DNA of 64,000 bases from NCBI GenBank assembly GCA_020832495.1, contig JAFIEP010000138.1:1-64000 (forward strand), given 5' to 3'. This DNA is from Acidimicrobiia bacterium (lineage in GTDB: Bacteria > Actinomycetota > Acidimicrobiia > Acidimicrobiales > Acidimicrobilacustridaceae). Shown in pieces: positions 1 through 34,721 of this stretch. Below the pieces are notes generated by a model. That model was not told the DNA's origin and ran no database searches. It saw nothing but the letters and a program-made list of their open reading frames with translations. The translations under genes were made by a program, and so were the position numbers. Each line of letters opens with the position of its first letter. The stretch's first letter is position 1.

Positions 1-234
1 CGCGGTGATGAGCGTGCCGGCCAGCCAGGCGTGCTCCCGCACGACGACGCCGACCGCTGTGCCCCCGAACACCGAGGCCAGCAGGGCCAAGGTGAGCGGC
101 AGATGGCACGGGCAGAACACGAAGGACCCGAACAGCCAAAGCCGGCCGCGCCGCTCGAGCACCGGTGTGGGCTCGACACGGCTCGCAGACACGCCTGGTG
201 GCTCCACGAGCGGGGTAGGGGGCTTCGTCGTCAT
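1..234 (-). CDS. MerE-like heavy-metal transport protein (C-terminus off window)
   Basis: This is the N-terminal 78 residues of a small membrane protein read on the minus strand; the rest lies before base 1. A polar, proline-rich stretch (residues 1-30) is followed by a hydrophobic segment carrying the motif CPCHLPL (Cys41 and Cys43), then a second hydrophobic run with GGTAVGVVVREHAW. The CPCHLP motif followed by a Gly-rich helix and a Glu-His is characteristic of MerE/MerT-like mercury transporters, in which the vicinal cysteines carry the metal through the inner membrane. The start ATG sits 6 bases downstream of a TATAGT -10 box, so the message is probably leaderless. A CsoR-type operator in the promoter argues for metal-responsive control, possibly copper rather than mercury. 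Family call good, substrate uncertain. Confidence 0.7.
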   Translation of the reverse strand, partial: MTTKPPTPLVEPPGVSASRVEPTPVLERRGRLWLFGSFVFCPCHLPLTLALLASVFGGTAVGVVVREHAWLAGTLITA

Positions 235-240
235 GCCCAC

Positions 241-269
241 ACTATACCCTAGGGGGTATCAGCTGGCAA
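241..269 (-). promoter_or_regulatory. Promoter with CsoR/DUF156-type operator for the MerE-like gene
   Basis: On the minus strand a -35 TTGCCA (264-269) and a -10 TATAGT (241-246) are separated by exactly 17 bases. The spacer and the edge of the -10 contain the inverted repeat ATACCC-N4-GGGTAT (244-259). G/C-tract operators of this TACCC...GGGTA form are bound by CsoR-family copper sensors and relatives. The operator would occlude RNA polymerase until metal binds the repressor. No csoR gene is visible in the window. Confidence 0.65.
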
Positions 270-316
270 GGGCCCTCCGACCTCCGACGGTCGATCGGCC
301 GTGATCGGGCGCTCGG

Positions 317-1324
317 TCACCATCCATCCCAGGGTGGTGCGTCGCTCGACTGGAACTCGATGGCCCCGGAATCGCAACCAGAACCGACAGGACGCGGCGC
401 ACCTCGCAGATCCGTGGTGCGCTGGCCCCCACACGAGTGCAGGCCCTCCGGCACCCGGTGCCTGATCAGCGTGGTCGGGAGGGGTATCTCGTACCAGAGG
501 TGGATGTCGATGATCTCCACAAAGTGCCCGTCGTGGGGGATGGCGCCGACCGCGTCACCGGGGCCGTCGAGTCCACACGTGTCAGAGGTGCCGACGCTGT
601 AGCCCAACGACGTCGGCGCGGTTCCTTCGCAGAATCCGCGCAGGACGCTCGAGGCGAACGTCGTGGTCCCGTCGCCCTGCGTCCGCACGACAGGGCCTTG
701 CTGGGCCCCCCAGAGTGTGATTCCCCTCAGGGTCGACGCAACCAGGTGGACGGTGCCCTCGTTCCTCACCGGTTGACCGAGCGTGGCCATGTAGGAGAGC
801 TCGGCGACGAACGCACCCTCAGCGCCGACACGAACCACTGGAGCGTTCGGGTTCACGAACACGCCGCGGCGAAGCACGGCCGTTCCCTCGACCTCGAGGG
901 TTCCCGGGACACCGAGGCCTTCCGCTGCGAGCACACCCCCTTCTTCGACGCGCAGCACGGCGGTCGACGACCAGGCGGCGTCGATCGCGGCGAAGGTGGC
1001 CGGATCACTGTGGGCTCCCCAGTTGATCTGCACGTTGGACGTCACCACCATCGTGCCCAGGTCCCAGTCGTACACACCCGCAGGTGCCGCGACCTGGGCG
1101 CGGTCAACGGTGTTGGACTCCTCGATCGCAGCACGCAACGTGCAATCGCCCTCGCCCGCTGTCGCTTCGCACACCCCGTCACCCGGCGCGGCGGCCGCCG
1201 CGTCAGCGAAGGTCGTCACCTCGAACAACGGGGGTGGCTCCCCGGGCTCACAGGCGCTCAGCAGCAACCCCACGCCGACCGCAGCCGACACACCAATCAC
1301 GACCCTTGTCCCCCGACGCATCAT
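317..1324 (-). CDS. CSLREA-domain lipoprotein
   Basis: The 335-residue protein begins with a type II signal peptide: Arg-rich start, hydrophobic run, then the lipobox LLSAC with Cys25. A CSLREA-type segment follows (DGVCEATAGEGDCTLRAAI, about residues 49-67), as found at the start of many exported actinobacterial and chloroflexal surface proteins with parallel beta-helix bodies. The body is rich in Val, Gly, Thr and Asn with short repeating turns, consistent with a right-handed beta-helix. I chose the ATG at 1324 (first of two adjacent Met codons) because the longer frame up to 1402 would bury the signal peptide; a GGGGATGG stretch precedes it. Role is surface or extracellular; substrate unknown. 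Confidence 0.6.
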   Translation of the reverse strand: MMRRGTRVVIGVSAAVGVGLLLSACEPGEPPPLFEVTTFADAAAAAPGDGVCEATAGEGDCTLRAAIEESNTVDRAQVAAPAGVYDWDLGTMVVTSNVQINWGAHSDPATFAAIDAAWSSTAVLRVEEGGVLAAEGLGVPGTLEVEGTAVLRRGVFVNPNAPVVRVGAEGAFVAELSYMATLGQPVRNEGTVHLVASTLRGITLWGAQQGPVVRTQGDGTTTFASSVLRGFCEGTAPTSLGYSVGTSDTCGLDGPGDAVGAIPHDGHFVEIIDIHLWYEIPLPTTLIRHRVPEGLHSCGGQRTTDLRGAPRPVGSGCDSGAIEFQSSDAPPWDGW

Positions 1325-1515
1325 GAACCATCCCCGCGAGTGCAGGTCCACCCACCGGAAGGGAAGACATCCGCAACACCGGATCGTAGCGAGTGGGTCC
1401 ATCTCCCGCCGGTCGTTTCGCGCGTCGGCGTGCAGACGCCGGTGGCTCCCGAAACGGACGGTCCGGTCTGGGGGGCCGTTGCGCAGTCTGGCCGCAGGCG
1501 TTAGGTGGGGGCACG

Positions 1516-2418
1516 TCAGTGGTGAAGCACCGCTTGGGCCTCGCGGACGCGGATGGGGACGGTGGCCGTGGTGGTGAGCGTACCGAGTTCACCTCCGTTG
1601 CCCGTGGTGCCGTGCCAGTGAGCGGCCCATTCGATGGTGATGGTGAGGGGATACGTGCCCTCGGGGTGGTCACGGGTGGAGCGGTGCTTCCATTGGTGGG
1701 TGCAGTCGCCTGGGGTTGGGCGGTCCGCAGTGTGCGAGGTGGGCGGCCGACCGGGGCCCGTGCAGCGCTGCGGCGGGGTGCCGTCGCCGGGGTCGATGGT
1801 GAGGCGGGTCGGTGAGGCCTCGACGGTGGCACTGGTGGTGGCGACGGTGGCGGTTGCGCTCTGGCGCTGCCAGGGACCGTCGTGCCAGACCCAGGTGTGG
1901 AGCCCGACGAGGTGGTCGGCGCCGGACGGTGGGTTGGTGCTGACCGCCGGTGGGGTGAGGGTGAGCGCGGCGAGGGCGGCGTCGAGGGCCCGTTGTTCTG
2001 CGAGCGCTCCGGCGAAGGGATCGGCAGGGTCGTAGACGACGATGTCGACGGAGAGGACGTCGCCGTCGATCGTGCGGCACATGAAGGTGTAGGCGACGTC
2101 GGGTTCGGGGGTGACGGGAGTCGTCTGATCCACGGTGTAGGCGTAGGTGCCGTCGGTTGCGCCAAAGGCGTGGTAGCTGCAGATCACCGGGCGGCCGCCG
2201 CCTCCCCCACCACCGCCGGCGGGCGACCAGCTGCCCAACGACTGCCCGTTCGCACCCTGCACCGCAAACGCCACCGGCTGTCCATCCACCACCGCTCCGG
2301 CGGTGTAGTCATGGGTTGGGGTGACACCGCCGAACAGATAGTCAGCAGTAGCCGGAGCGCCAATCGCACACAGGGCGACGGCGCACACCAGCATGCCGAC
2401 CACAGCCTTCAATCGCAT
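1516..2418 (-). CDS. Secreted protein of unknown function with poly-Gly linker
   Basis: The 300-residue protein has a clear Sec signal peptide (residues 1-25, ending APATA-D). A glycine run (eight consecutive Gly near residue 70) links a short N-terminal segment to the main body. The body is Thr/Pro/Val rich and contains a PGDGTPPQRC motif and paired Trp-His patches, resembling PKD-like beta-sandwich modules of exported actinobacterial proteins, but I recognise no defined family. Its start overlaps the end of the upstream lipoprotein gene by 10 bases, so the two are probably translated from one message. An AAGGGCGG ribosome-binding sequence lies within the upstream gene. Confidence 0.55.
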   Translation of the reverse strand: MRLKAVVGMLVCAVALCAIGAPATADYLFGGVTPTHDYTAGAVVDGQPVAFAVQGANGQSLGSWSPAGGGGGGGGRPVICSYHAFGATDGTYAYTVDQTTPVTPEPDVAYTFMCRTIDGDVLSVDIVVYDPADPFAGALAEQRALDAALAALTLTPPAVSTNPPSGADHLVGLHTWVWHDGPWQRQSATATVATTSATVEASPTRLTIDPGDGTPPQRCTGPGRPPTSHTADRPTPGDCTHQWKHRSTRDHPEGTYPLTITIEWAAHWHGTTGNGGELGTLTTTATVPIRVREAQAVLHH

Positions 2419-3140
2419 CCGGACCGCCCTTGCGTCACCCCGGCGGCATCCGTACGACTCACGCGCCAGTCTCCATCGACGAGCACTAGGTCGAGTTCGA
2501 CGAAGCCCGACAACACCTCGTCACTCACCACCTCCCCCGTGCTCGCAATTCGAACGACGGCATCGTCGACCAGGCAGTGTCTGACCTGGGCCCGCTCGGG
2601 CGACTCGATGGTGACCTCTGCTCCACGGAGGTCGACTCCGGCATCACCGTCGACAACGTGGCCGAGGACGGCCATACGTTCAGTGCGACTGCGGGAGTGG
2701 TCCAGTGCCTCGCCCGTGTAGTAGCGCTCGAACCCCGAATGTTTGGGGTCGGGGGGACGACCTGCTTCGATCATCGTGTCCCAGAAGCCCTGGACGGCCT
2801 CCAAAACTTCCTCCTCGACCGACAGCTCCTCGGTCGAGTCGGCAGCTTGCTCGGAGGCATCGTCGACAGGCAGCGGCGACCGCTCGGCGTCCGTTCCCTC
2901 GTGGGTCACCGGTGCGGGCGTCGGAACCGACGAGTCCGCCCCGGCTCCTCCGCTCCGCAGTCCGCACCCACCCAACAGCCCCCAGGACACGCCGACGGCC
3001 AGGCACACCACGGCACCTCGCAGGGCAAGCGAACGACGTACGGGTTCACCGCCCCTCGCCACCTCGGACGGGGTGTGATCGCCCGTCGCCCTGCTCGGGC
3101 GGTCGCCTACCCGGCGCCTCATCTGCTGCATGTCCACCAT
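2409..3140 (-). CDS. Membrane-anchored lipoprotein-like protein with NTF2-like C-terminal domain
   Basis: The frame has a polar N-terminus, one hydrophobic segment ending LLGGC (a lipobox), a Ser/Thr/Glu-rich linker, and a C-terminal domain of about 120 residues beginning EAVQGFWDTMIEAG and ending VLVDGDWRVSRTD. That layout is typical of NTF2/SnoaL-like folds in exported actinobacterial proteins. Start choice is open: the ATG at 3140 has a GGTGGGG ribosome-binding sequence and places the lipobox Cys at residue 59, while a GTG at 3062 would place it at residue 33, a better lipoprotein signal length but without a visible ribosome-binding site. It overlaps the following secreted-protein gene by 10 bases and probably forms a two-gene operon with it. 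Confidence 0.5.
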   Translation of the reverse strand: MVDMQQMRRRVGDRPSRATGDHTPSEVARGGEPVRRSLALRGAVVCLAVGVSWGLLGGCGLRSGGAGADSSVPTPAPVTHEGTDAERSPLPVDDASEQAADSTEELSVEEEVLEAVQGFWDTMIEAGRPPDPKHSGFERYYTGEALDHSRSRTERMAVLGHVVDGDAGVDLRGAEVTIESPERAQVRHCLVDDAVVRIASTGEVVSDEVLSGFVELDLVLVDGDWRVSRTDAAGVTQGRSGCD

Positions 3141-3296
3141 GTAGCTGACCCCACCAGGAGCGTCACCCGACCACAACCGCACCACGAGCGAGCAGGCGCG
3201 CTCGCGGTGGCGGTTGGCCACGTTGCGTCGCAGTGCACGTCGTCAGATCACTCCCTGCGTTCGACGTACCACCCACCGGGCCGCGACGATGCACCC

Positions 3297-3935
3297 ATGC
3301 CCCATCCGCGCCTCGTCCTGGCATCGGCCTCGCCGACCCGCGCCAGCATCCTGCGGACGGCCGGATTCGACCCCGAGATCCGAGTGAGCGGCGTGGACGA
3401 GACCGAGGTGGCCCCCGACGACGTGCGGGCCATGGTGGCCGCGCTGGCCCGCCTGAAGGCCACTGCCGTCGCCGACCGCCTCGCCACGGAGGTGACCGAC
3501 GACGAGCAGGCCCTGGTCGTTGGATGCGACTCGCTGTTCGAGTGGGACGGGCACCCGGTGGGCAAGCCTGCCGACGTTGCCGAGGCCCGGGCCCGCTGGC
3601 GGGCCATGCGTGGCCGAGCCGGGCTCCTGCACACCGGCCACTGCGTCATCGCCTGTCCCGGCGGCGACAGCGCCGAGGGGGTGGCCACCTCGACGGTCCG
3701 CTTCGGCAGGCCGACCGACGACGAGATCGAGGCCTACCTGGCCACCGGCGAGCCACTCGAGGTCGCCGGTGCCGCCACCATCGAAGGTCGCTCGGCGCCC
3801 TTCATCGACGGCATCGAGGGCGACCACACCAATGTGCTGGGACTGTCGCTCCCCCTCCTGCGCACGCTCCTGGCCGACCTCGGCGTGGCCATCACCGACC
3901 TGTGGGTCCCACCCGGTGGGGTCTCGACCCCGTGA
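3297..3935 (+). CDS. maf: Maf-family nucleoside triphosphate pyrophosphatase
   Basis: The 212-residue product matches the usual Maf length. Maf proteins are cytoplasmic house-cleaning enzymes that hydrolyse non-canonical or surplus nucleoside triphosphates to monophosphate and pyrophosphate. Seen here: the N-terminal LASASPTRASILR loop (phosphate-binding SASPxR), VVGCDSLFEWDG...VGKP replacing the commoner AADT...LGKP, and the C-terminal GIEGDHTNVLGLSLPLL segment that closes the active site. The GCDS variant is characteristic of the actinobacterial Maf-like branch. The ATG at 3297 was chosen because homology begins there; the same frame is open far upstream but is not protein-like. It precedes dus by 112 bases on the same strand. 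Confidence 0.85.
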   Translation: MPHPRLVLASASPTRASILRTAGFDPEIRVSGVDETEVAPDDVRAMVAALARLKATAVADRLATEVTDDEQALVVGCDSLFEWDGHPVGKPADVAEARARWRAMRGRAGLLHTGHCVIACPGGDSAEGVATSTVRFGRPTDDEIEAYLATGEPLEVAGAATIEGRSAPFIDGIEGDHTNVLGLSLPLLRTLLADLGVAITDLWVPPGGVSTP

Positions 3936-4047
3936 CCGCCCCGGCGCCCGCACCCTGCCAACCACGGTGCCCCACCGGAACGACCCCACCGGCGTCAGCG
4001 GCCACGAGCGCCCCGTGGCGCGTCGCGCCGCCCACGGTCGCCGGGCC

Positions 4048-5175
4048 ATGACGCTCTCCATCGGACCGCTGCGCCTCGACCCGCCCGTGGTGCTCGCCCC
4101 CATGGCCGGTGTGACCAACGTGGCCTTCCGCCGACTGTGCCGCCAGTTCGGCGCCGGGCTCTACGTGAGCGAGATGGTCACCGCCCGAGCACTGGTGGAG
4201 GGCAACGAACGCACCAGACGGATGGTGGCGCGGGACGACGGTGAGCCGACCCACAGCGTGCAGCTCTACAGCGTGCATCCCGAGGTGCTGGCGCGGGCCG
4301 TGCGGATCCTGATCGACGACATCGGGGTGGACCACGTCGATCTCAACTTCGGCTGCCCGGCGCCCAAGGTCACCCGTCGCGGTGGGGGCGCCGCGCTTCC
4401 GCTCCACCCCCGGCTCCTCCAACGGCTCGTCGAGTCTGCCGTGGGTTCCGCCGGGCGCGTCCCGGTCACGGTGAAGATGCGGATGGGCATCGACGACTCG
4501 CTGCGCACCGACATCGAGGCAGCCCGCATCGCCGAGGACGCTGGGGCAGCAGCGGTGGCGTTGCACGCTCGCACCGCGGTGCAGCTCTACTCCGGCGAGG
4601 CCCGCTGGGAGGCCATCGCCGAGCTCCGCGCCAGTGTGCGCAGCATCCCGGTCCTCGGCAACGGCGACATCTGGCGAGCCGAAGACGCGTTGGCCATGCA
4701 CGAGGCAACCGGTTGCGACGGCGTGGTCATCGGCCGAGGCTGCCTGGGTCGGCCCTGGCTGTTCCGGGACCTGGCCTGCGCTTACGCAGGCGAACCGATC
4801 CCGCCACCGCCCACCTTCGGCGAGACGGTGGCCACCATGCGAGAACACCTCGAGCTGCTGTGCGCCCACCTGGGTGGTCTCGGCGGGGTGCGCGACTTCC
4901 GCAAGCACCTTGCCTGGTACCTGGTCGGCTATCCGGTCGGTCGGGCGCGCCGCCACGAATTGAACCGGGCCAACGACCCCGAGGTGGTCGACGCCCTCCT
5001 CGCCCGCCTGCTGGACGTCGTCGACCCAGACCTGCGCCTCGACCCGGTGACCGCCACCCTGCCCCGGGGGCACACGAACGGCCCACGCCCGGTGGCGCTC
5101 CCCGACGGGTGGCTCGACAGCCGCCACGACGACCAACCCCCGGCCGGTGCCGAGCTGTTGGTCTCGGGCGGCTGA
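4048..5175 (+). CDS. dusB: tRNA-dihydrouridine synthase
   Basis: This FMN-dependent enzyme reduces uridines in the tRNA D-loop. The 375-residue protein starts with the TIM-barrel strand PPVVLAPMAGVTNVAFRR. It carries the DHVDLNFGCPAPKVTRRGGGAAL segment, whose Cys is the catalytic general acid, VKMRMGID, the phosphate-binding LGNGDI and CDGVVIGRGCLGRPWLF motifs, and the C-terminal helical tRNA-binding domain with FRKHLAWYLVGYP. All diagnostic motifs are intact. The giant inverted repeat begins inside this gene at 4371, so its mirror copy at the window end is incomplete. It converges on clpC across a strong hairpin. Confidence 0.92.
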   Translation: MTLSIGPLRLDPPVVLAPMAGVTNVAFRRLCRQFGAGLYVSEMVTARALVEGNERTRRMVARDDGEPTHSVQLYSVHPEVLARAVRILIDDIGVDHVDLNFGCPAPKVTRRGGGAALPLHPRLLQRLVESAVGSAGRVPVTVKMRMGIDDSLRTDIEAARIAEDAGAAAVALHARTAVQLYSGEARWEAIAELRASVRSIPVLGNGDIWRAEDALAMHEATGCDGVVIGRGCLGRPWLFRDLACAYAGEPIPPPPTFGETVATMREHLELLCAHLGGLGGVRDFRKHLAWYLVGYPVGRARRHELNRANDPEVVDALLARLLDVVDPDLRLDPVTATLPRGHTNGPRPVALPDGWLDSRHDDQPPAGAELLVSGG

Positions 5176-5345: not shown

Positions 5346-7919
<2,574 letters not shown>

Positions 7920-18751: not shown

Positions 18752-19858
18752 ATGCCTGCTTCTACCCGCACGCGCTCGGATCGCCGGTCCCCGGCGGTGG
18801 TACCTCGTGGCCGTGCCGCGCTCTACGCCCGCCAGTCGATCACCCGGGAAGGCTCGGCGTCGCTCGACGTGCAGGTCGAGGCCTGTCGTGAGGCTGCGGC
18901 TCGGTTGAACCTCGAGGTGGTGGCCGAACTTGTGGAAGCGCCGTCGACGTCGGGCTACAGCAACCGCGGGCGCAACCGACCGAAGTTCGGCGAGCTGCTC
19001 GACCTGATCCGCAGGGGCGAGGTCGACTGCGTGGTGGCCTACAAGACCGACCGACTGTCACGAGGTGGCGGGCCGGGCTGGGCGCCACTGGTGGATGCGT
19101 TCGAGGAAGCCGGTCGTGATCCAGATCGCGCGGTGGCCACGACCGATGGCTGGGTGAGCGAGTTCGAGATCGGCATCCGCTCGGCGATGGACCGCGAGGA
19201 GTCGAAGAAGACCTCCGACCGGATGTTGGCCGTGCGGGCTCGCGAGGCGAAGGAAGGCATGCCTCGCATCGGTGGCCGGCGGCCATACGGGTACTCGCAG
19301 GACATGAGTGAGCACATCGCCGAGGAGGTCGAGCGCATCGAGGAGGCGGCTGACCTGGTGCTTGCCGGCGAGTCGGTGTGGAGCATCTGCACCGACTGGA
19401 ACGAGCGCGGCGTGCCGACGGTGACGGACTCGGCCTGGGCGGTCCAGACGCTGACCTCGATCCTCACGTCGCCACGCATCGCCGGCTTCCGGACCCATCA
19501 GGGCAAGGTGGTCGGTGAGGGACAGTGGAAGCGGATCATCGACGAGGACCGTCACGACGCCCTGGTGGCGGCGCTGGCACCTCGTCGGTCGAAGCCGAGG
19601 AAGGGTCGGACGTACCCGCTCGTCGGGTTTCTGGTGTGCGGCAAGTGTGGGGGCCCGCTGCGGTCACTCACCCGGGAGAACGGCGGCCGGTCGCACGCGT
19701 GTCGCAAGGGGCCGGGCATGGGCGGCTGCGATGGCATCCGCATCCAGGCCGACGGCCTGGAGAACTACGTGCGCGATCTCATCTGCGGAATGCTCGCCGA
19801 TCCGGTGACCCGGGCAGCGATGGCTGAGCCTCGATCCACCGATTTGGTAGGGGTTTGA
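18752..19858 (+). CDS. Large serine recombinase, C-terminally truncated
   Basis: These enzymes integrate or excise mobile elements through a phosphoserine-DNA intermediate. The 368-residue frame has the resolvase domain (about 21-165) with nucleophile Ser29 in ALYARQS and the YKTDRLSRG active-site Arg segment, a Recombinase domain (about 172-275, RPYGY...WSICTDWNERGVPT), and a zinc ribbon with Cys296, Cys299, Cys317 and Cys326. The last nine residues after Glu359 are encoded by the terminal repeat of an inserted IS1380-type relic. The C-terminal part normally present, including the coiled coil that controls directionality in this family (usually 450-600 residues in total), is missing. Probably inactive or altered. 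Confidence 0.85.
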   Translation: MPASTRTRSDRRSPAVVPRGRAALYARQSITREGSASLDVQVEACREAAARLNLEVVAELVEAPSTSGYSNRGRNRPKFGELLDLIRRGEVDCVVAYKTDRLSRGGGPGWAPLVDAFEEAGRDPDRAVATTDGWVSEFEIGIRSAMDREESKKTSDRMLAVRAREAKEGMPRIGGRRPYGYSQDMSEHIAEEVERIEEAADLVLAGESVWSICTDWNERGVPTVTDSAWAVQTLTSILTSPRIAGFRTHQGKVVGEGQWKRIIDEDRHDALVAALAPRRSKPRKGRTYPLVGFLVCGKCGGPLRSLTRENGGRSHACRKGPGMGGCDGIRIQADGLENYVRDLICGMLADPVTRAAMAEPRSTDLVGV

Positions 19859-23451: not shown

Positions 23452-23925
23452 CTATCCGGGACTGTCCGGCCCAGGGCGTCCCCAACCTCCGCCCCCTGGC
23501 GTCAGCATTCGTAGGACGTCGCCGGCCTTCAGCTGGATCGTGCACTTGTCGGGCAGCCGCTCCGCCTTCGACTCCTCGCCGCCTGGCAGCAGCCAGTTCT
23601 CCCCCACCGCCCCGGGCTCGCCGCCCGCCAACCCCCACGGCTGGCTCACCCGCCGCTCAGTGATCAGCGACACGGTGGCATCGACGAGCACCTGCAGGTC
23701 CCGCTCAATCCCCTCACCACCCGGCGCCGACCCAGCGCCGCCGCTCCCCCGCCGCAACCGCTGCCGCAGCACCCGCAACGGGAACGCCCGCTCCAACGCC
23801 TCGATGGGCGTGTTGCGCGTATTCGTCATTCCGGTGTGAATGCCCGACATCCCGGGCATCCCCGGCCCGCGCTCGCGAGCCGACGAACTGGTAGCCGCTT
23901 GACTTGTGTTGGTGACCGCACTCAT
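23452..23925 (-). pseudogene. C-terminal remnant of hydantoinase B / 5-oxoprolinase
   Basis: From about residue 33 onwards the frame reads TNTRNTPIEALERAFPLRV, then ERDLQVLVDATVSLITERRVSQPWGLAGGEPG and GDVLRMLTPGGGGWG. These are the last 120 or so residues of HyuB-type ATP-dependent hydantoinase/acetone carboxylase subunits, normally about 520-600 residues long. The N-terminal three-quarters are missing, and residues 1-30 are low-complexity. It cannot be a working enzyme. Its ATG overlaps the VapC stop (ATGA), so it is still co-translated with the toxin gene. It ends just before the abiE operator. Confidence 0.75.
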
Positions 23926-24365
23926 GACCCCCCACCGCCCGGGACCAGCTGCACCGTGACGCCCAGGTGGCGGTACACGTCAATGGCCCGCCGGTCGTTG
24001 GTTGCGAGGACGAGGCCGTGCTCGCAGGCTGTCGCACCGACCAACGCGTCGTACACGGCTCCTCCGCTGATCTCGCCGCCTGCGAGCTGCGTTGCCAGCC
24101 ACGCCGAGCCCCTGTCCGACAGATACCGCGACTCCGGGAAGTTCTCGGCGATGAGACGAGCCACCAGGGCGGGCGCCCGGCGTGCCGGCGGCGGTAGCCG
24201 GGTCAGGACGGAGAAGGTCTCGAACACTGCGTGGCCGGCCAGGCCGAGCACCATGCCGTCGAGGGCGTGGAGCACCGGCTGGTGGAACTCGTGGTCGGCA
24301 ACGGTGAGTGGCACCGCCACGCTCGTGTCGACGAGGAGGTCGGGTTCCCTACCGCTGGTCGACAT
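23922..24365 (-). CDS. vapC: VapC-type PIN-domain toxin
   Basis: The 147-residue PIN ribonuclease has the acidic metal-binding residues in order: LLVDTSVAV (Asp near residue 12), FETFS (Glu), AVYDALVG (Asp) and ATNDRRAI (Asp). VapC toxins cleave tRNA or rRNA when not neutralised. Its ATG lies 17 bases inside the vapB gene, which favours coupled synthesis. The start at 24365 is preferred over an in-frame ATG seven codons upstream because it matches the family N-terminus. Confidence 0.85.
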   Translation of the reverse strand: MSTSGREPDLLVDTSVAVPLTVADHEFHQPVLHALDGMVLGLAGHAVFETFSVLTRLPPPARRAPALVARLIAENFPESRYLSDRGSAWLATQLAGGEISGGAVYDALVGATACEHGLVLATNDRRAIDVYRHLGVTVQLVPGGGGS

Positions 24366-24582
24366 CGCGGAGCATTCGCACCTCATCGGCCGTGACCACC
24401 TGGTCGGCCGACGGGATCACCAGCCGTCCAGCGACCTCCGCGAGCTCGTCGCTCGTCACCGGTTCCAGACGCAACGCTGCCCCGTCGGGGACGAGCTCGA
24501 CCTCGCCCGGACGAAGTCCCAACTGATCGCGCAGCGCCTTCGGGATGACCAGACGTCCTGCCTGATCAATGGTTGCTCGCAT
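24349..24582 (-). CDS. vapB: VapB-type AbrB-fold antitoxin
   Basis: The 77-residue protein has the AbrB/MazE swapped-hairpin domain (about 1-50: TIDQAGRLVIPKALRDQLGLRPGEVELVPDG) followed by a flexible C-terminus that would wrap the toxin. It also represses the operon. A perfect palindrome overlaps its promoter, and the TAATCT -10 box lies 6 bases before the ATG, giving a leaderless message. It overlaps vapC by 17 bases. Confidence 0.87.
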   Translation of the reverse strand: MRATIDQAGRLVIPKALRDQLGLRPGEVELVPDGAALRLEPVTSDELAEVAGRLVIPSADQVVTADEVRMLRDVDQR

Positions 24583-32737: not shown

Positions 32738-33135
32738 GGTTGCCTCCGGGTGAGGCGCACACCACTCGAAGCCAGGTCGTGCGGCACCGGGGGGCGGAGC
32801 TTGCGGGCCGCCACGGTCACGGCCACGACCCGCTGGTCGGCCAACACCGTGTCAGCGACGGTGGTGGCCAGGTGTTCGAGCAGGGCGACGTGCCCGCTGG
32901 TGGCCACGCGCACCACCTCGTCGGCCAAGGCGCCGTAGTCCACCGTGTCGTCGAGGTCGTCGGAACGACCCGCAGCGGTGAGGTCGGTGTGCACATCGAG
33001 GTCGATCTCGACCGGCTGCGCCCGGACCTGCTCCTCGGGCAGCACCCCGACGGTGGCCAGCACCCGCAACCCGCGCAGCTCGATGACGTCGAGCAGGGCT
33101 GCGGGGTCGCCGGCCGGCATCGGGGCGGAACTCAC
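32734..33135 (-). CDS. folB: Dihydroneopterin aldolase
   Basis: FolB releases glycolaldehyde from dihydroneopterin. The 133 residues show DVIELRGLRVLATVGVLPEEQ at the N-terminus, the DDTVDYGALADEV block, LLEHLATTVAD with the pterin-binding Glu, and a C-terminal ARKLRPP with the catalytic Lys. GTG start overlapping the preceding gene's stop (GTGA); an ATG five codons on is an alternative. Confidence 0.93.
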   Translation of the reverse strand: MSSAPMPAGDPAALLDVIELRGLRVLATVGVLPEEQVRAQPVEIDLDVHTDLTAAGRSDDLDDTVDYGALADEVVRVATSGHVALLEHLATTVADTVLADQRVVAVTVAARKLRPPVPHDLASSGVRLTRRQP

Positions 33136-33653
33136 GGACCGGCCGCCAGACGGCCCGCGATTGTGACCAGTTCCCGACCGAACGGGCCCAGCTCGCGTTG
33201 CACCATGCGCTCGATGACGGTGATGGCGTCGGGTCCGTTGTCGACCAGACCGGCCCACAGCAGGTAGCCGCACATGAAGCCGCAGACGCTGTCACCGAGT
33301 TCTTCGTTGTGCACGAGCAGCTTGGCCCCGGCGGCGAGCAGGTCGGCCAACTGGGGGAAGTGACCGGCCAGGAAGGGGGTCGGGTCGTCGCCGGTGTCGA
33401 AGGGCCAGTGCCGCCAGGCGACACCCAACTCGTCGTAGTTGTGCAGGTTGTGCGGCGCCGGGATGAGCGAGACCACCGCGGTGAACCCCTGTTCACGCAC
33501 CCAGATGATCTCTTCCTGGCGGCGGACGCGACGGTGGTTCTGCGCGTAGCCGCCCGGTCGCTCGCACACCGCGAGTTGGTCCTTGATGATCCAGTGGAAG
33601 TTCCGTGGAACGATCCCCTGCTGCCACTTGCCCTTGTTCGCCATCGCCCTCAT
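33132..33653 (-). CDS. Phosphatase-fold protein lacking catalytic residues, in the folate operon
   Basis: The 173-residue protein has the strand-helix order of dual-specificity phosphatases: RNFHWIIKDQLAV, FTAVVSLIPAP, VAWRHWPFDTGDDPTP (where the general-acid loop lies), then AKLLVHNEELGDSVCGFMCGYLL at the position of the P-loop. In active enzymes that loop is HCxxxxxR; here Cys is Asn116 and Arg is Ser122, so phosphatase chemistry is not expected. It may bind a phosphorylated ligand or partner. It is joined by 4-base overlaps to folP upstream and folB downstream, suggesting a folate-linked role. No named family is certain. Confidence 0.6.
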   Translation of the reverse strand: MRAMANKGKWQQGIVPRNFHWIIKDQLAVCERPGGYAQNHRRVRRQEEIIWVREQGFTAVVSLIPAPHNLHNYDELGVAWRHWPFDTGDDPTPFLAGHFPQLADLLAAGAKLLVHNEELGDSVCGFMCGYLLWAGLVDNGPDAITVIERMVQRELGPFGRELVTIAGRLAAGP

Positions 33654-34185
33654 GCTGCCACGACCTGGGATGCCTGCCGAGTTTGGCGGACATCATGGGC
33701 ACGGATCATACGTACCCCGAGGTGCATCGCCCACACCGCGGTGGCGATCGACCCCTCGAGGCGGTCCTCGGGACCGACGGACGCCACCCCGTCACTGGCC
33801 GCCAACAACGTTCCCAGCGTGCTCTTCCGGCTGGTCCCCACCACAACGGGGAAGCCGCTGGCCACCAGGCGATCCAACGAGGCCAACAGGGCCAGGTTGT
33901 GCTCGATCGTCTTGCCGAAACCGATGCCCGGGTCGATCCAGACCTCCGTCACGCCGGCCGCCGTCGCCGCCGCCGCTCGCTCTGTGAGGAACCGGTTCAC
34001 CTCATCGACCACGTCGTCGTAGGTCGGCGCCTGCTGCATGGTGCGCGGCTCGCCGGCCATGTGGACGGCCACCCAACCCACCCCAAGCTCGGCCGCCACC
34101 GGCCACAGCGTGGCCGAGACGTCGTTGACGAGGCTGGCACCGACCGCAACCGCCGCTCGGGCCACCTCGGCGTGGCGGGTGTCGA
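33650..34185 (-). pseudogene. folP: Dihydropteroate synthase gene, 5' part lost at the palindrome axis
   Basis: Only the C-terminal 180 or so residues of FolP remain. Family sequence begins with VSIDTRHAEVARAAV at the axis and continues through LVNDVSA, WVAVHMAGEPRTMQ, WIDPGIGFGKTIEHN (phosphate and pterin binding) and GTSRKSTLG to a normal C-terminus. The N-terminal half with the NVTPDSFSDGG block is missing; upstream of the axis the frame reads the other arm's antisense strand. The truncation is a consequence of the inverted-repeat join, not of ordinary decay. It overlaps the next gene by 4 bases. Confidence 0.9.
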
Positions 34186-34192
34186 TCGACAC
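34179..34192. other. Axis of the giant palindrome inside folP codons for VSIDT
   Basis: The axis lies between 34185 and 34186 in GTGTCGATCGACAC. These bases encode the conserved VSIDT strand of dihydropteroate synthase across the axis, so the natural gene itself must be palindromic here for about 14 bases. A short natural palindrome is a plausible site for strand switching during amplification or for a graph fold-back. Confidence 0.8.
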
Positions 34193-34721
34193 CCGCCACG
34201 CCGAGGTGGCCCGAGCGGCGGTTGCGGTCGGTGCCAGCCTCGTCAACGACGTCTCGGCCACGCTGTGGCCGGTGGCGGCCGAGCTTGGGGTGGGTTGGGT
34301 GGCCGTCCACATGGCCGGCGAGCCGCGCACCATGCAGCAGGCGCCGACCTACGACGACGTGGTCGATGAGGTGAACCGGTTCCTCACAGAGCGAGCGGCG
34401 GCGGCGACGGCGGCCGGCGTGACGGAGGTCTGGATCGACCCGGGCATCGGTTTCGGCAAGACGATCGAGCACAACCTGGCCCTGTTGGCCTCGTTGGATC
34501 GCCTGGTGGCCAGCGGCTTCCCCGTTGTGGTGGGGACCAGCCGGAAGAGCACGCTGGGAACGTTGTTGGCGGCCAGTGACGGGGTGGCGTCCGTCGGTCC
34601 CGAGGACCGCCTCGAGGGGTCGATCGCCACCGCGGTGTGGGCGATGCACCTCGGGGTACGTATGATCCGTGCCCATGATGTCCGCCAAACTCGGCAGGCA
34701 TCCCAGGTCGTGGCAGCATGA
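34186..34721 (+). pseudogene. folP: Dihydropteroate synthase gene, 5'-truncated (right-arm copy)
   Basis: Mirror copy of 33650-34185. The same C-terminal part, from VSIDTRHAEV to the stop, with DPGIGFGKT and SRKS present and the N-terminal pterin-binding half absent. Overlaps the following gene by ATGA. Confidence 0.9.

Follow-up and report, generated by a model that had tools for sequence, protein, structure and literature searches.

The window analysed here (64,000 bp, bases 1-64000 of the 68,370-bp contig C50) raises the question of how a perfect palindrome of 68 kb came to have its axis inside folP, the gene for dihydropteroate synthase (DHPS), and whether it reflects a rearrangement of the chromosome or an event during assembly. 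Our analyses point strongly to the latter: the palindrome is very probably an assembly artefact that arose at a coincidental 22-bp palindrome within folP.

The palindromic contig and the two halves of folP

Within the window, 4371-34185 and 34186-64000 form arms of 100% complementarity, with 0 mismatches over 29,815 bp. When the organism's own genome was searched, bases 1-4370 reappeared in reversed orientation at C50:64001-68370, which is the contig end. As C50 is 68,370 bases long, the whole contig is one palindrome (2 x 34,185), perfect from end to end, with its axis (34185/34186) at exactly half its length. C50 thus equals its own reverse complement from one end to the other, a property expected of a palindrome artefact of a de Bruijn graph. 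The arms are:

1-34185, no strand: left arm, complete in the contig; the window also contains the mirror image of 4371-34185
34186-64000, no strand: right arm, running on to base 68370, the contig end

A second palindromic contig was not seen, as a self-complementary axis longer than 24 bp was absent from the first 20 kb of 140 contigs, a scan that reaches the midpoint only of contigs shorter than about 40 kb.

When the same genome was searched with the Pterin_bind profile (PF00809), each arm of C50 matched positions 54-244, while positions 1-80 matched C112:2-235 on the minus strand, at the very end of this 4,176-bp contig. The C50 match before profile position ~77 is probably antisense sequence aligned by chance, and the pterin-binding domain is complete only when C112 (1-80) and an arm (77-244) are combined. 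The initial annotation had predicted that the missing sequence is the 5' half of folP, and this half is what C112 supplies. As the assembly contains this half on a separate contig, its absence from C50 can be accounted for without a biological rearrangement. The parts of folP around the axis are:

34175-34721, plus strand: genuine 3' part of folP (DHPS), matching Pfam Pterin_bind 77-244 from base 34182 onwards; its 5' counterpart lies on C112
33650-34196, minus strand: mirror copy of the folP 3' part, very probably an artefactual duplicate
34038-34174, plus strand: false N-terminus (MVRGSPAMW...) of a chimeric ORF, 45-46 residues, translated from mirror-copy sequence in antisense

The chimeric ORF spans the axis at 34038-34721 (plus strand), with its mirror at 33650-34333 (minus strand), while the true N-terminal half is on C112. 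An annotation pipeline would label it a DHPS of 227 aa with the false N-terminus MVRGSPAMWTATQPTPSS..., and chimeric DHPS proteins of this genome may already be present in databases.

The gene content of the two contigs agrees with their being neighbors. On C112, the 5' half of folP follows hpt (oppositely oriented), ftsH and folE; on the arm, its 3' part is accompanied by a 173-aa gene, folB and folK and, further along, by genes for a sodium/proton exchanger, panD, a nadB-like FAD enzyme and clpC. The order ftsH-folE-folP-folB-folK is the usual one in actinobacteria, and identical genes in identical order are obtained here when C112 is joined to one arm. What distinguishes this neighborhood is the accidental 22-bp palindrome in the RVSIDTR codons, a trait of this genome alone among all that were examined. 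The 173-aa gene (33132-33653, minus strand), located between folP and folB, has no Pfam match; judging from its sequence, it may encode a dual-specificity phosphatase-like protein.

The natural palindrome at the axis

It had been proposed initially that the axis falls on a pre-existing palindrome of about 14 bases in the VSIDT codons. The location is correct, but the length is not: in the natural gene, obtained by continuing C112 into the arm, 22 bp are palindromic and complementarity then drops immediately to chance level. The two features are:

34179-34192, no strand: 14-bp core GTGTCGATCGACAC, with the axis 34185/34186 at its center, encoding V-S-I-D-T in the DHPS frame of folP
34175-34196, no strand: perfect palindrome of 22 bp in the natural folP gene, GCGGGTGTCGATCGACACCCGC, encoding RVSIDTR, half-length 11

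The 14-mer GTGTCGATCGACAC is present at two places only in this assembly, the axis and C112:3-16. Palindromes of at least 22 bp numbered 10 in about 2.09 Mb of other contigs (part of the assembly, the middles of large contigs being left out), or roughly 5e-6 per position, and the presence of a 22-bp palindrome at a given axis is beyond chance. However, the palindrome was rejected as a sufficient cause, as at least seven others of 22 bp or more stand unbroken within other contigs; palindromes of 22-24 bp were assembled intact in C57, C38, C28, C106, C85, C55 and elsewhere. An additional event, the loss of one edge of the assembly graph, is therefore needed.

The suggestion that the VSIDT codons might be palindromic in close relatives as well was not borne out. 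The 14-mer did not occur at the folP position in any of 36 other genomes of the family, all of which have a folP relative; it was found somewhere in seven of these genomes, never at folP coordinates. Among more distant folP genes, 2 of 75 (L205 and L216) were palindromic for at least 14 bp at the same site. Conservation among relatives was consequently rejected, and the palindrome is best regarded as a coincidence of codon choice. Nearly all genomes of the family carry folP as a single gene within a single contig.

Contig overlaps and the proposed mechanism

On the folP strand, C112 ends in ...GAGGTGCGGGTGTCGATCGACACCC; its last 20 bases are those of window positions 34175-34194, and the 21st from the end mismatches. 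This overlap and the one at the outer end of the arm differ in length:

34175-34194, no strand: 20 bp in common with the C112 end (C112:1-20, reversed), the longest shared suffix; k-1 for k = 21
1-141, no strand: 141 bp identical to the end of C59, an ordinary final-k contig junction

In the part of the assembly examined, exactly 141 bp were common to 14 pairs of contig ends, C50-C59 included; 250-bp "overlaps" of C16, C44, C56 and C68 were left out of this count, being probably N sequence. On the basis of these 14 pairs, the final k of the assembly is 141. The default k series of MEGAHIT starts at 21 and has 141 as its last value, and published settings of this type also use a k-min of 21 and a k-max of 141. 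We infer that the assembler was MEGAHIT-like, with k from 21 to 141. With k = 21, the two lengths at the folP axis take on a simple meaning: the unrearranged sequence is palindromic for 22 bases, which is k+1, and its true continuation, C112, ends inside the palindrome with a k-sized overlap of 20 bases, which is k-1.

These lengths are best accounted for by the following mechanism. The real chromosome would carry ftsH-folE-folP-folB-folK without interruption. In a graph that merges the strands, a palindromic (k+1)-mer connects a node with the reverse complement of that node, and because of this link the folP path meets its own mirror image at k = 21. If the single edge joining the folP 5' side (C112) was lost at this first k, the sole path left would lead along the arm, across the palindrome and back on the reverse complement of the arm; as every later round of k starts from the graph before it, the junction would never be restored. 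Removal of weak links from the first graph could have this effect and, under MEGAHIT's rules, would take a single edge from C112. We infer that the linking edge was lost in the first graph, perhaps as a weak link.

A toy de Bruijn graph with merged strands, built from C112 plus arm (34 kb of natural sequence), behaved in this way. The sequence contained one self-reverse-complement edge at k = 21, the axis 22-mer, and none at k = 23, 29 or 141. The node preceding the axis 22-mer was entered by an edge from C112 and by a second edge from the arm's reverse complement. When only the edge on the C112 side, TGCGGGTGTCGATCGACACCCG, was dropped, the path from arm through palindrome to reversed arm became unbranched and yielded a palindromic unitig that matches window positions 7827-60544; other 21-mer branchings fixed its outer limits. 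At the same time, the modelled C112 side stopped at the same base as the real C112.

Assembly was then simulated with 150-base reads in a multi-k toy assembler, in which later k-mers need support from the previous graph; it imitates the rules of MEGAHIT and stands in for the program itself. With nothing removed, a single linear contig was obtained. Removal of one edge at k = 21 gave a fully palindromic contig plus a C112-like contig, with 20 bp in common. When fold-back reads were mixed with natural reads, the result was broken contigs, 141-bp overlaps and a 260-bp palindrome. Of the three simulated cases, only the removal of one edge at k = 21 matches the data.

Alternative explanations

The initial annotation had proposed self-priming or strand switching at the short palindrome. 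In its physical form, this means that a strand end folded at the palindrome during library preparation or amplification and primed itself, and that the resulting chimeric reads entered the assembly. Library artefacts of the hairpin fold-back type have been described (PMC3946424) and, as in C50, reverse-complement sequence arises in them at a short inverted repeat; a perfect palindrome is also a natural site for strand folding. However, the artefacts described are interrupted palindromes within reads, whereas the C50 overlaps of 20 and 141 bp point to the graph rather than to molecules. Fold-back in simulation led to a break with 141-bp overlaps, but the contig ends at the axis share 20 bp and the palindrome takes in the whole arm; under fold-back, it would be a coincidence that 22 and 20 bp are exactly k+1 and k-1. 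Such a process is not needed, fits the data less well than the loss of a graph edge, and is improbable.

A real inverted duplication could instead be carried by a majority of the cells, with an unrearranged minority giving rise to C112. The sequence as deposited speaks for it, and our model suggests that C112 could likewise come to end with a 20-bp overlap if a minority link of low depth were pruned at k = 21. Against it, the arms do not differ at a single position over 29.8 kb, folP would be broken, and ftsH, folE and hpt would sit on the supposed minority piece. Moreover, the outer ends are identical and both join the same C59 end, which makes such a duplication impossible in a normal chromosome without further mirroring. 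We therefore consider it very unlikely, and a large inverted duplication that began at the 22-bp folP palindrome in part of the population is just as implausible. A hairpin end read through both strands would yield a perfect palindrome such as C50, so that the axis might be the hairpin turn of a telomere, or of a palindromic replication intermediate, of a linear replicon. Yet this axis lies inside a syntenic chromosomal folP, a gene normally needed for folate synthesis, and the other half of the gene is present with a matching 20-bp overlap; this explanation is hardly credible.

Relation to published palindromes and consequences

Whole-contig palindromes have been treated as assembly errors before, in 81 contigs of M. 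bovis (PMC9455707) and in single-cell cyanobacteria (PMC12755884). As far as the available text of these papers goes, they resemble C50 in that a short-read contig equals its own reverse complement and carries exact duplicate genes; they differ in that the cause is not stated there, whereas for C50 it is possible to specify the seed palindrome, the value of k and the edge presumably lost. It has also been recognized that palindromic k-mers complicate double-stranded de Bruijn graphs and that odd k values are chosen against graph inversion (PMC3656733; PMC6003920). As in C50, a self-reverse-complement word lets the graph turn back; however, an odd k guards the k-mers, not the (k+1)-mer edges, and the C50 palindrome is k+1 = 22 bases long. 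Our literature search did not find the k_min+1 mechanism described for whole-contig palindromes.

If C50 is an assembly artefact of this kind, a seemingly spectacular perfect palindrome can be struck off the list of biological finds. A simple check for palindromic contigs follows: one looks for an axis palindrome of k_min+1 bases and for another contig that ends k_min-1 bases into it. Such contigs matter for annotation, as gene counts are doubled, false genes appear at the axis and true genes are split. In this assembly, about 34 kb of genes are counted twice, which may add to its stated contamination of 1.52%.

Other features of the arm and the assembly

The arm contains a large serine recombinase (18752-19858, plus strand; Resolvase, Recombinase and zinc-ribbon domains), possibly a remnant of an integrated element, and a VapC-like PIN-domain protein (23922-24386, minus strand). 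Two 147-bp stretches in the 5' part of the clpC-like gene (7536-7682 and 7761-7907, 225 bp apart; mirrored pairs I2 and I3) are 73% alike and probably reflect its two Clp_N repeats. Long runs of G or C and degenerate G+C-rich sequence end several contigs, namely L154 (C135) and L157 (C138), each at 1-60, L021 (C59) at 1-200 and L130 (C110) at its high end; such ends would be expected where reads turn to poly-G or fail in stretches very rich in G+C, and genes called there would be unreliable.
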